Source of the DNA: Chitinophaga pinensis
GTDB taxonomy: Bacteria > Bacteroidota > Bacteroidia > Chitinophagales > CAMDFR01
Direction of reading: 5' to 3'
NCBI GenBank assembly: GCA_945860705.1
Contig: CAMART010000022.1
Span: forward strand, 1-50,761
DNA length: 50,761 bases
Within the stretch, counting starts at the first letter, position 1; each line of letters opens with the position of its first letter. Below the pieces are notes generated by a model, which saw only the letters and a list, made by a program, of their open reading frames with translations, searched no databases and was not told the DNA's origin. Both the position numbers and the translations under genes were made by a program. Below are positions 34,970-39,542 of this stretch, one piece after another.

Positions 34970-37681
34970 ATGGATAAATTTTCGTATATCTCTAATGCAC
35001 ACCCCGACTATATAGAAAACCTATATAACGACTTTAAAAAAGACCCTAAAAATGTAGATGAAGAATTTAAAAAATTCTTTGAAGGTTTTGAATTTGCCTC
35101 TACTAATTTTAATGGAAAACTAAAAGACGGTGGAGCTTCCGTAGATGAACTAAAGGTACTCAATCTAATTGTAGCGTATAGAAATAGGGGACATCTTATA
35201 GCTAATACCAATCCGCTAAAACCTCGTAAAGATAGACATGCCAATCTAGATTTAAGTTATTTTGGACTAAGCGAAAAAGACCTTGATAGAAAATTTCATG
35301 CAGGTGAAGAGGTAGGTATAGGCGTAGTGACACTCCGAGAAATAATAGATACTTTGCAAAAAAGATATTGCAAAACTATGGGCTTTGAGTTTAACTATGT
35401 GCGTGACGTAGAAGAATGGAAATGGCTAAGAAGTAAAATAGAAGTAAATCCGAATGTAGTACAATTTAGTATAGAAAAGAAAACTCAAATACTCCGTAAA
35501 CTCAATCAAGCAGTAGTTTTTGAGCAGTTTTTGGGTAAAAAATTTATTGGTGAAAAAAGATTTTCTATAGAAGGTGGTGAAGCTACCATCCCTGCCTTAC
35601 ATTATATAATCAATGCAGCATGCGACAATAAAGCCGAAGAAGTAGTGATAGGTATGGCGCATAGAGGTAGACTCAATGTACTTAGCAATATCATGGGCAA
35701 AACCTATGAGCAAATATTCAGTGAATTTCAAGGAAATGAACCTGCAGATAAATCTACTATGGGTGATGGTGATGTAAAATATCACTTAGGTTTTTCATCT
35801 AACTATAAAACGGATTCTGGAAAAGATGTATATGTAAATCTAACTCCAAACCCATCGCACCTTGAGGCTGTAGACCCTATCATGCTTGGCTATACAAGAG
35901 CACAAGCAGATTCTATTCATGATTCTAACTATGACAAAATACTTCCGCTCATGATACATGGCGATGCGGCAGTGGCAGGACAAGGAATAGTATATGAAGT
36001 AATTCAAATGGCCAATCTTAAAGGCTACAGAACTGGTGGTACTATTCATTTTGTAGTCAATAACCAAATAGGTTTCACTACAGATTTTGATGATGCTCGT
36101 TCATCTGACTATTGCACCTCTATTGCAGCTACTATTCAAGCACCCGTGGTGCATGTAAACGGAGATGATATAGAAGCTGTAGTTTTTGCAGCAGAAATGG
36201 CAGCAGAATATCGTCAAAAATTTCATAAAGATATTTTTATAGATTTAGTTTGTTATAGAAAACATGGACACAACGAAAGTGATGACCCTAAGTTTACACA
36301 ACCTAGTTTATACAAATTGATTTCTGCTCACGAAAATCCTCGTGACTTATATTCTGCAAAACTTGCTTCAACAGGTGAAGTAGGAGCAGATATTGCAAAA
36401 AAACTAGATGAAGAATTTTGGTCAGAACTTCAAAAAAGATTAGACATGGTAAAAGAAAAATCTTTACCATATGTACCACAACCTCTAAAACTAGAATGGC
36501 AAAAACTTAAAAAAGCTACCCAAGCAGATTTTGAAACTTCACCAAAAACTGCTATTGACAAAAAAACTGCAAAAACAATCATAGATGGACTTTGCAAAGT
36601 TCCAGAAGGATTTACACCACTCAAAAAAGTAGACTCTTATCTAAAAGATAGAAGAATACTCATGCAAGAAAATAAATCAGTTGATTGGGCAGCTGCAGAG
36701 CTTATGGCTTATGGCTCTTTATTGCTTGATGGTGTTGGTATCCGTTTGAGTGGAGAAGATGTGAAACGTGGTACTTTCTCCCATAGACATGCCTGCATAT
36801 TCGATGAAAATACGAATGCAGAATATAATAGACTATCTCAACTTAGCGATAAACAAGCTACATTCAATATATATAATTCACACTTATCCGAATATGGCGT
36901 TTTAGGTTTTGATTATGGATACTCACTGAGCAATCCTCATGCACAAGTAATCTGGGAAGCACAGTTTGGTGATTTTGCAAATACTTGTCAAGTGATCATC
37001 GATCAATTTATAGCTAGTGCAGAAAGCAAATGGAATAGAATGAGTGGATTGGTGATGTTACTTCCGCACGGATACGAAGGACAAGGCCCTGAGCACTCTA
37101 GTGCAAGACTAGAGAGATACCTCCAACTTTGTGCAGAGCTCAATATGGTAGTCGTAAATATCACCTCTCCTGCAAATTTCTTCCATGCTATACGTCGTCA
37201 ACAAGCTTGGAATTTTAGAAAGCCACTTGTGGTGATGAGTCCTAAATCATTGCTTAGAGGAGTGCAAGACCCGATAGAAAAATTATTTGAAGGTGGCTTT
37301 AAAGAAATAATAGATGATGAAAATATCACTGGTAAAAAAGTAAGAAAAGTGATTTTGTGTAGTGGTAGGCTGTATGTAGATTTGCTCAAAAAACAAACGG
37401 ATGAAAAAATAAATGATGTAGCTATAGTGCGACTAGAACAGCTCTATCCACTAGCATACGGACAGATAGATGCCATCATGAACAAATACAAAGGTGCATC
37501 ATTTGTGTGGGTACAAGAAGAGCCAGCTAATATGGGTGCGCTAATGCATATCATGTGTGAGCTAGGCACAAAATATTCTCTCAGCTATGTAAGCAGAAAA
37601 GCAAGTGCGTCTCCAGCTACAGGATTTAAACAACAACACAAAGATGAATTATATGATATTTTAAATAAAGCGTTTAGTTAA
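34970..37681 (+). CDS. sucA: 2-oxoglutarate dehydrogenase E1 component
   Basis: The 903-residue thiamine-diphosphate enzyme decarboxylates 2-oxoglutarate in the TCA cycle and passes the succinyl group to the E2 lipoyl arm. It has the short N-terminal E2-docking segment ('YIENLYNDFKKDPKNVDEEF'), the substrate-site block 'GMAHRGRLNVL', the thiamine-diphosphate/metal motif 'HGDAAVAGQG...NNQIGFT', and the C-terminal pyrimidine-domain 'LPHGYEGQGPEHSSARLERY'. Length is typical. The E2 gene sucB follows, but 607 bp away because an IVS-type gene with its own flanking repeats sits between. Confidence 0.97.
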   Translation: MDKFSYISNAHPDYIENLYNDFKKDPKNVDEEFKKFFEGFEFASTNFNGKLKDGGASVDELKVLNLIVAYRNRGHLIANTNPLKPRKDRHANLDLSYFGLSEKDLDRKFHAGEEVGIGVVTLREIIDTLQKRYCKTMGFEFNYVRDVEEWKWLRSKIEVNPNVVQFSIEKKTQILRKLNQAVVFEQFLGKKFIGEKRFSIEGGEATIPALHYIINAACDNKAEEVVIGMAHRGRLNVLSNIMGKTYEQIFSEFQGNEPADKSTMGDGDVKYHLGFSSNYKTDSGKDVYVNLTPNPSHLEAVDPIMLGYTRAQADSIHDSNYDKILPLMIHGDAAVAGQGIVYEVIQMANLKGYRTGGTIHFVVNNQIGFTTDFDDARSSDYCTSIAATIQAPVVHVNGDDIEAVVFAAEMAAEYRQKFHKDIFIDLVCYRKHGHNESDDPKFTQPSLYKLISAHENPRDLYSAKLASTGEVGADIAKKLDEEFWSELQKRLDMVKEKSLPYVPQPLKLEWQKLKKATQADFETSPKTAIDKKTAKTIIDGLCKVPEGFTPLKKVDSYLKDRRILMQENKSVDWAAAELMAYGSLLLDGVGIRLSGEDVKRGTFSHRHACIFDENTNAEYNRLSQLSDKQATFNIYNSHLSEYGVLGFDYGYSLSNPHAQVIWEAQFGDFANTCQVIIDQFIASAESKWNRMSGLVMLLPHGYEGQGPEHSSARLERYLQLCAELNMVVVNITSPANFFHAIRRQQAWNFRKPLVVMSPKSLLRGVQDPIEKLFEGGFKEIIDDENITGKKVRKVILCSGRLYVDLLKKQTDEKINDVAIVRLEQLYPLAYGQIDAIMNKYKGASFVWVQEEPANMGALMHIMCELGTKYSLSYVSRKASASPATGFKQQHKDELYDILNKAFS

Positions 37682-37687
37682 AGTAAT

Positions 37688-38282
37688 GTTGAGTTTTGAG
37701 TTTTGAGTTTTGAATGTTGAATAGAAAACAATTCTGAATCTTTGAATTTTGAATTTTGAGTAAAATAGTTGTTTTGATTATAGAAAATAGAAAATTTAAA
37801 TACTCTTTAATAAATAGATAAAAGATGGCAAAAGAGAATATTATTAGAAATAAAGCATTTGATTTTTCTTTACAAATTATAGAACTTTATAAAATACATA
37901 TTCAAAATAAAGAATTTATAATTAGCAAACAACTTTTAAGAAGTGCAACAAGTATTGGAGCAAATATAGAAGAGGCAACTGGAGGAATAACAAGAAAAGA
38001 ATTTATATATAAATTATCATTATCACTAAAAGAAGCTAAAGAAACAAAATATTGGTTAATGTTATTAGACAAAAGTAAATTAGTAGATTATGATTATAGT
38101 GTTTGTTTAAATAATTTGGAAGAGATATTAAAAATTTTAACATCAATAATAAAGACAGCGCAAGAAAAAAATATTCAAAATTCATAAAAACACAAAGAAA
38201 TTAAACTATAGAAATAAATAAAACTTAATTACAAATTAGATTATTAAACTATTCAAAATTCATAATTCAAAAATTCAAAATT
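37688..38282. mobile_element. putative IVS-type element between sucA and sucB
   Basis: A 595 bp segment is bounded by arrays of a 7-base unit in opposite orientation. On the left are three GAGTTTT-type units (37688-37722) and TTTGAATTTTGAATTTTGA (37741-37759); on the right is TTCAAAAATTCAAAATT (38266-38282). The 14-mer ATTCAAAATTCATA also occurs twice (38173-38186, 38251-38264). It fills the whole sucA-sucB gap apart from 6 bp on each side, and its only gene is the four-helix-bundle protein. Confidence 0.5.
37825..38187 (+). CDS. four-helix-bundle protein (23S rRNA IVS / Avd-like)
   Basis: The 120-residue protein matches the four-helix-bundle family first described as proteins encoded by intervening sequences within bacterial 23S rRNA genes and related to the Avd accessory proteins of diversity-generating retroelements. 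Signature blocks are 'NKAFDFSLQIIELYK', 'QLLRSATSIGANIEEA' and 'YKLSLSLKEAKETKYWL'. Such proteins form basic oligomers that bind nucleic acid, but a cellular role is not established. Codon use is more TTA/ATT-rich than in sucA or sucB, consistent with arrival from elsewhere. Its last codons overlap one copy of a repeat found again downstream. Confidence 0.85.
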   Translation: MAKENIIRNKAFDFSLQIIELYKIHIQNKEFIISKQLLRSATSIGANIEEATGGITRKEFIYKLSLSLKEAKETKYWLMLLDKSKLVDYDYSVCLNNLEEILKILTSIIKTAQEKNIQNS

Positions 38283-38288
38283 AAATAT

Positions 38289-39542
38289 ATGTTAAATGTA
38301 GTTATACCGAATGTTGCCGAATCGATCACAGAAGTGACACTATCAAAGTGGTTAGTAAAATCAGGTGATTATGTAAAAATGGATCAAGCAATCTGTGAAA
38401 TAGAAACAGAAAAAGCTGGTCAAGAGTTATTTGCTGAAAAAGCTGGAACCATAGAGCTCATAGCTGGTGAAGGCGACGATATAAAAGTAGGCGAACTCAT
38501 AGCAAAAATAGATACGGATGCAAAAGCACCAGCAGTGACAGAAAGTGCTCCAGCTCCTGTAGCAGAGAAAAAAGCAAGTCCTGCTCCTGTTGCAACTGCT
38601 CCTGTAGTAGAAGAAACAAAAAGCTATGCAAGTGGAGTACCAAGTCCTGCATCAGCTAAAATCATAGCAGAGAATAATCTAGACCCATCAAAAATAAAAG
38701 GCACTGGTGCAAAAGGCAGAATCACTAAGGCCGATGTACTAGATGCTGTAGCAAACGGAACTGCACACATGAGTGGCGGTATCAAAACTCAATTGGCGGA
38801 GATGAATGCCTATAGCCGAGGAGAAAACAAAGAGAAAATGAGCCGTATGCGTAAAACTATTTCTGAAAGATTGGTTTTTGCAAAAAACAGCACAGCGATG
38901 CTTACTACTTTTAATGAAGTAGACTGCTCTGCTATGATGGCTCTTCGTACAAAATATGCAGATAAATTTAAAGAAAAACATGGTATAGGACTTGGATTCA
39001 TGTCGTTCTTTACCAAAGCATGTGCATTGGCATTGATGAAGTTTCCTGCTGTAAATGCTTATATAGAAGATGAAAGCTTGGTATATCATGACTATGCTGA
39101 TATTTCTATCGCAGTGAGCACACCAAAAGGACTTGTAGTACCTGTGATAAGAAATGCTGAAAGCCTTACTATGGCTGGCATAGAAAAAACTGTAAAAGAA
39201 TTAGCTCTCAAAGGTCGTGATGGAAAACTCACTATGGAAGATATGACTGGTGGTACTTTCACTATCACTAATGGTGGTGTATTTGGTTCACTGATGAGTA
39301 CGCCTATCATCAATGCACCGCAGAGTGCAATACTCGGTATGCACAAGATAGAAGATAGAGCTATGGTAGTAAACGGACAAATAGTAGCTCGACCTATGAT
39401 GTACTTGGCACTAAGTTATGACCACAGAATTATCGATGGTAAAGAGTCTGTTTCATTTTTAGTAATGGTAAAAGACTTACTAGAAAATCCTCATAAACTA
39501 TTATTGGGTGAAGATCCTATCGAGTTATTATTACAAGTATAA
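38289..39542 (+). CDS. sucB: 2-oxoglutarate dehydrogenase E2, dihydrolipoyl succinyltransferase
   Basis: The 417-residue protein has one N-terminal lipoyl domain with the modified lysine K42 in 'IETEKAGQE', an Ala/Pro-rich linker (about 80-115), a peripheral subunit-binding domain ('[20 protein letters not shown]', about 118-150) and the catalytic acyltransferase domain ending '[17 protein letters not shown]' with the active-site histidine. This is the standard SucB layout. It forms the core of the complex with SucA; the E3 lipoamide dehydrogenase is not in the window. A terminator follows. Confidence 0.96.

Follow-up and report, generated by a model that had tools for sequence, protein, structure and literature searches.

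The 607-nt insert that separates sucA from sucB in this genome probably belongs to a family of minimal mobile elements, in which a single gene of the PF05635/TIGR02436 family lies between inverted arrays of a seven-nucleotide word, REPIN-like gene-less hairpins accompany it, and spread depends on the encoded protein (IVP). We favour this reading because of the structure of the loci, their element-specific words, the inheritance of protein and word together, the presence and absence of elements between species, and the occurrence of hairpins built from resident words, and also because sampled genomes free of IVP genes contain no arrays and the protein is under purifying selection. The family is apparently widespread and undescribed: literature searches outside subscription journals found no description of heptad arms around an IVP gene. 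PF05635/TIGR02436 is common in Bacteroidota as a 'four helix bundle protein', and its role has been obscure ever since its discovery in rRNA intervening sequences. A link to an element with inverted heptad arms of its own would give this protein family a purpose and account for many spacer heptad repeats that are otherwise puzzling; it also makes the question of the protein's role directly testable through binding of its own word and through movement or processing of the element.

An AT-rich insert between sucA and sucB

The insert lies in the window, by which we mean the whole 50,761-nt stretch of DNA that was analysed, and comprises the following features together with its two host genes.

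34970-37681, + strand: sucA (2-oxoglutarate dehydrogenase E1), upstream host gene; ORF call and family match
37682-38288, + strand: whole insert, sucA stop to sucB start, 607 nt, GC 0.198
37688-37724, + strand: outer left heptad array, TTTTGAG/TTTTGAA words; lag-7 period, 0/3000 shuffles
37730-37762, + strand: inner left heptad array, TTTGAATTTTGAATTTTGAG; pairs best, in inverted orientation, with the right array, 33 nt, 88%
37825-38187, + strand: IVP gene (23S_rRNA_IVP / four helix bundle protein), 120 aa; family profiles and AF2 model
38168-38187, + strand: array-like unit that makes up the final codons of the IVP gene; 95% identity to 38246-38265
38249-38282, + strand: right heptad array (ATTCAAA), inverted in orientation relative to the left arrays
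38289-39542, + strand: sucB (E2 acyltransferase), downstream host gene; ORF call and family match

A first-pass annotation, made from the letters alone, had described an IVP gene that fills the sucA-sucB gap between inverted TTTTGAR arrays some 6 bp from either neighbour, and these coordinates were confirmed, with array ends about 6 nt from sucA and from sucB. The 14-mer that it had noted at the end of the gene, AAATATTCAAAATT, is present in three copies, at 38169, 38247 and 38269; the first of these is the end of the ORF, so that the last codons of the IVP gene are themselves array-like. The greater AT-richness that it reported also holds, GC content being 0.198 in the insert, against 0.360 in sucA, 0.388 in sucB and 0.317 in the window as a whole.

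The best inverted pair in the insert joins 37730-37762 to the right array over 33 nt, at 88% complementarity. In a lag-7 shuffle test, the seven-nucleotide period was equalled by 0/3000 shuffles on the left side and 20/3000 on the right. The inverted match of the two spacers, taken for the sucAB copy alone, was reached by 78/3000 shuffles and is only moderately unlikely, because both sides are very AT-rich; the strong evidence for inverted arms is the population of related loci, rather than this copy. An Rfam search of the insert region gave no match above the gathering score, and a sub-threshold match of SNORD113 to the arrays (E 0.011) was taken as chance.

The IVP protein: family, fold and selection

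The window protein exceeds the cut-offs of both PF05635 (84.2 bits, cut-off 33.8) and TIGR02436 (97.9 bits, cut-off 24), and PF05635 is the sole family found for it, which bears out the earlier assignment to the same gene family as rRNA IVSs. Matches to PF05635/TIGR02436 occur in 50/60 related genomes of the same order. The AF2 model of the protein (pLDDT 89) has four helices, and the folds closest to this predicted structure are those of BT_0352 (2rld) and XCC0516 (2gsc), followed by Avd (4dwl), with a TM of about 0.75-0.81 to the best 4dwl chain. Across nine IVP gene pairs, some of them at different sites, dN/dS ranges from 0.04 to 0.18, and the protein is under purifying selection. When divergent IVPs are aligned, E52 and E75 are invariant and Q38, R41, S45 and N49 nearly so (L005 numbering); five of these six residues lie on helix 2, a pattern suggesting that this protein, usually regarded as structural, has a functional face.

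Inverted heptad arrays around IVP genes

Flanks peculiar to the sucAB copy were ruled out by a genome-wide check: this genome holds four PF05635 genes, and 4/4 lie between inverted heptad arrays, so the pattern is not unique. Each has a different word, these being AGTTCAA (sufB-sufC), AGAACCA/TTGGTTC, TAATTAAGAATTAC and TTTTGAR (sucA-sucB).

Two sets of IVP loci were compared with swapped pairings of their flanks. In the first (93 loci, 90 usable), the left flank of each locus was scored against the reverse-complemented right flank of that locus, and 50/90 own pairs fell above the 95th percentile of swapped pairs, compared with 18/90 in direct orientation. The second, independently gathered set comprises 80 named loci from Bacteroidota together with Ignavibacteria, Desulfobacterota, Acidobacteriota and others, assignments in which MAG bins may err; it came from a genome scan with a narrow alignment, a broader alignment having had no conserved stretches, and 43/79 of its own pairs fell above the same percentile. 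Both flanks peak at lags 7, 14 and 21 in the first set and in the second. When only the spacers were used, at 151 loci from both sets, the median inverted-match score was 18 for own and 8 for swapped pairs, with 101/151 loci beyond the 95th percentile of swapped pairs and 61/151 beyond the 99th; about a third of the 151 loci are without clear arms by these tests. Left spacers of IVP loci are C-poor and right spacers G-poor.

The first-pass annotation had envisaged a general family of IVP elements with heptad ends. Inverted ends are indeed widespread in the family, but the word itself is specific to an element lineage and many copies are gene-less. One heptad common to the whole family was ruled out: there is only a weak shared core (ART) with a strong strand bias, and the information content of the heptads is 3.6 bits, against 3.1-3.4 after column permutation. 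The period is not strictly seven, since words of 8 nt or of mixed 7/8-nt length (AGTTATAA) occur in some IVP elements, as in the left flanks of L199 and L179.

Placement, orientation and predicted pairing

The IVP gene has the same direction as both neighbours at 141 loci and is opposed to both at 6. The most reused site is the fadB-fadA spacer (34 loci), which is used by many genera, and other recurrent sites include thiolase-acyl-CoA dehydrogenase, nuoA-nuoB and other metabolic operons. The sucAB insert fits this pattern: it occupies an operon spacer, and its IVP gene is flanked by inverted arrays of one word and runs in the sense direction. Predicted MFE folds pair the left with the right arm over a mean of 24.2 nt, against 10.4 nt with swapped right arms, in agreement with the earlier suggestion that the arms could pair in the mRNA; by these predictions the inverted ends would form a stem around the ORF, as the ends of a 23S rRNA IVS do.

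Protein and word are inherited together

Arm similarity tracks IVP identity even at unrelated sites, with host kinship contributing to the similarities. Among IVP pairs at different sites, mean arm scores (left/right) are 9.1/9.1 at 30-40% protein identity, 13.4/13.9 at 60-70% and 19.8/16.4 above 70%. Families of elements that use one word can be recognised, among them TGTATAA (L223, L228, L236 and L242, with proteins 81-91% identical) and GAGATTT (L164, L171, L172, L185 and L204). At the fadB-fadA site of Flavobacterium, two loci (L236 and L242, IVPs 81% identical to each other) use TGTATAA and four others (L170, L177, L220 and L225) use AAGTATT; between these groups the IVPs are only 41-46% identical, yet fadA is 88-91% identical. 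Divergence of the IVP and a switch of word despite similar fadA indicate that replacement affected the gene together with its two arms, as one unit.

Gene-less arrays carry the words of resident elements

A sample of about 450 kb of this genome (399 kb of stretches plus the window) contains 22 arrays with a lag of 7; the other lags tried gave 0-3 each, apart from 14, which is twice 7. Nineteen of the 22 do not adjoin an IVP gene; these score 24.5 against the four resident words and 16.1 against sets of four foreign AT-rich elements (0/2000), and the corresponding values for array segments only are 21.2 and 13.5 (0/2000). Gene-less copies therefore match the flanks of resident genes, as in REPIN/RAYT systems. 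The TTTTGAR word has 40 matches here, compared with 10 for a reversed control pattern and with 1, 4 and 1 in three congeners. One gene-less copy (L253) is a pure hairpin. In another (L245), both arms survive and enclose what looks like the C-terminus of an IVP, so that it would be an internal-deletion derivative.

Within the genomes sampled, arrays depend on the presence of IVP genes: none was found in 657 kb from seven genomes without PF05635 matches, and 26 were found in 939 kb from six IVP genomes, both being small samples that differ in GC. This genome accounts for 20/26, the other IVP genomes sampled having few.

Gain, loss and persistence of elements

A self-contained insertion, as first proposed, is supported, and neither of the outcomes that the first-pass annotation had named as counting against it, conservation of the gene and arrays at this position across distant genera and flanks peculiar to this copy, was observed. 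The sucAB spacer of 607 nt is only 60 nt long in congener G003 and 52 nt in G001, gene-less in both, and the (incomplete) assemblies of these two congeners contain no PF05635 gene anywhere. Apart from three that were not resolved, the sucA ends displayed for other genomes also show no IVP gene, some having a tiny spacer and some other gene-less arrays. The spacer of G003 retains a one-sided array of the TTTTGAR word, so that the element may equally well have been lost in the congeners or gained in this genome.

Two other, closer congeneric species (G033 and G045) have six IVP genes each, with two sites in common. At three sites compared individually, an element of 435 nt faces a spacer of 27 nt, one of 517 nt faces a 78-nt hairpin that lacks the gene and is built from another word, and one of 451 nt faces a different insert, which carries a GxxExxY (PDDEXK_3) gene. 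These comparisons, in which the spacers have diverged, yielded no recognisable target-site duplication or conserved junction; at empty sites the spacer differs instead of being plainly interrupted. At murE-mraY, in two close species whose loci are about 95% identical, the IVP gene is intact in one and stop-broken in the other (L147, G033:C23), an element in decay.

Several IVPs at the same site are sisters in the protein tree, and the fadBA copies are scattered. Descent of the latter as a single vertically inherited gene was not supported, as the copies do not group into a clade (8 changes on the protein tree). The distances of IVP and fadA are nonetheless correlated (0.39), which points to inheritance as well as replacement. 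At the nuoAB, moxR and kdpBC sites, related hosts carry IVPs that are themselves related, an indication that many copies have been vertically inherited for long times.

Proposed mechanism and alternative explanations

The element that we envisage would consist of a left heptad array, an IVP gene and an inverted right heptad array, about 450-600 nt in all, placed in the sense direction between two co-transcribed genes. We infer that the protein binds its own word and takes part in movement: it may recognise the heptad array of its own element, in a nucleic acid that is either single-stranded or paired, its predicted fold being near those of S23p/Avd proteins, whose crystals hold five chains, and it would be needed for the spread of the element and of its gene-less hairpins, with cutting and joining supplied by host or other resident enzymes. 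A likely route would be through a single strand of RNA or of lagging-strand DNA that is kept folded by pairing of the arms; the C-poor left and G-poor right arms would fold little alone and pair with each other. The strong sense-strand bias favours RNA or a transcription-linked step, or else selection against antisense copies. Only tentatively would we extend this to PF05635 as a whole, as a phylum-spanning class of mobile elements without a recombinase of their own, in which the protein reads a seven-nucleotide word, about one per ring subunit, on a folded single strand and spreads its gene and hairpins through operon spacers, perhaps in an RNA-linked manner, and of which rRNA IVSs would be a branch settled in rRNA.

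Several observations count against the mobile-element reading, namely the lack of a recognised target-site duplication together with the differing spacers at empty sites, the long vertical inheritance of many copies, a fold for which we know of no catalytic function, the origin of 20/26 arrays in this one genome, and the third of loci without clear arms; the use of fadB-fadA by many genera could also mean a host-useful function. Such a function might be that of a regulatory module, the IVP being a cis-acting RNA-binding regulator of its operon, with the arms as its binding sites, and spread being due to ordinary recombination and transfer. Purifying selection on the IVP, repeated placement in fadB-fadA, thiolase-acyl-CoA dehydrogenase, nuoA-nuoB and other metabolic operons, and long persistence at some sites are in line with this, but the target operons are functionally diverse, few sites are common to close species (2/6) and gene-less arrays with the same words are located elsewhere, and we regard it as distinctly unlikely. 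An mRNA intervening sequence, by analogy with rRNA, is possible, if somewhat doubtful: the arms would pair in the polycistronic mRNA and RNase III would cut the stem, separating the upstream and downstream messages, and the insert would persist as harmless in spacers or as useful for uneven expression. Own arms pair far more than swapped ones in predicted mRNA folds, orientation is sense by 141:6, and the protein family and stem-forming ends are as in the Coxiella IVS, which RNase III excises (PMC4990558); fold pairing, however, follows from inverted DNA alone and is no proof of RNA function, and the joint change of protein and word and the gene-less copies of resident words are left unexplained. 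Cutting of mRNA at the stem would be compatible with mobility, and both may hold. The interpretation in the first-pass annotation, of an IVS-like element in a protein-coding operon whose arrays could be processed in the mRNA, is thus partly supported.

The two remaining alternatives assign the IVP a smaller part. Movement by another resident enzyme, a reverse transcriptase or a Y1/HUH transposase, with the IVP as an accessory, would suit a genome with two reverse transcriptase genes and about five Y1 transposase genes and a fold that resembles Avd, the partner of diversity-generating reverse transcriptases. We consider it rather unlikely; the displayed reverse transcriptase and Y1 loci, four Y1 genes among them, are without heptad flanks, and these genes were also rejected as hidden owners of the arrays. 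If instead the arrays came first, arising by slippage of heptads through replication error, IVP genes would have landed in them or be tolerated beside them. Gene-less heptad arrays are common in this genome and heptamer arrays are known elsewhere without an IVP (PMC4679880), but arrays were found only in IVP genomes (0 in 657 kb without), their words follow the IVP lineage across sites and match resident elements, and the two arms of one locus match in inverted orientation, all of which makes this origin very improbable.

Comparison with known systems

In REPIN/RAYT systems a single small gene is flanked by repeats, and hairpins that share its word but lack the gene are found in intergenic spacers in greater numbers and depend on the resident gene. 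The present elements appear analogous in all these respects. They differ in that the protein is a four-helix protein rather than a Y1/HUH tyrosine nuclease, the Y1 genes of this genome lying elsewhere, away from the IVP element, and in that the repeats are 7-nt tandem arrays instead of the REP palindromes of REPINs (PMC3116915). With MITEs and insertion sequences they share terminal inverted repeats, presence/absence polymorphism and, in L245, a putative internal-deletion derivative, but there is no transposase inside the element and no target-site duplication was recognised.

The 23S rRNA IVSs of Leptospira and Coxiella, with their S23p/IVP gene, belong to the same family (PF05635/TIGR02436), have inverted ends capable of forming a stem and measure about 430-600 nt; they are considered selfish, and that of Coxiella is excised by RNase III (PMC4990558). 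The sucAB insert, in contrast, lies between sucA and sucB rather than within a 23S rRNA gene, and has tandem heptad ends with an element-specific word and dispersed gene-less derivatives. Avd of diversity-generating retroelements has, judging from the model, the same four-helix fold, but at the sites read neither a reverse transcriptase nor a template or variable repeat was seen next to the IVP; in the window its neighbours are sucA and sucB, and the reverse transcriptase genes are on another contig. The heptamer arrays (TAACTGA and others) of Beggiatoaceae, Cyanobacteria and some Bacteroidetes are likewise seven-nucleotide tandem words in intergenic spacers, but, as described in PMC4679880, they are one-sided direct repeats, whereas the arms here are inverted around a gene; no mention of four-helix proteins or intervening sequences was found in that paper.

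Other resident genes and spacer inserts

The two reverse transcriptase genes of this genome lie about 16 kb apart on one contig (L324 and L325, G000:C16) and look retron-like by eye. GxxExxY/PDDEXK_3 genes between repeats are possibly a second family of one-gene spacer elements. One such gene, with a ACACGGATT-type flank, occupies about 948-1500 of the reverse complement of L158 (G033:C113), at a site where the sister species holds an IVP element. The only GxxExxY gene of this genome (L263, 1250-2150, G000:C2) has tandem AGCCCGCAGATAACGCAGATAAGCGCAGA...AATCAGCGGG palindromic units on both sides.
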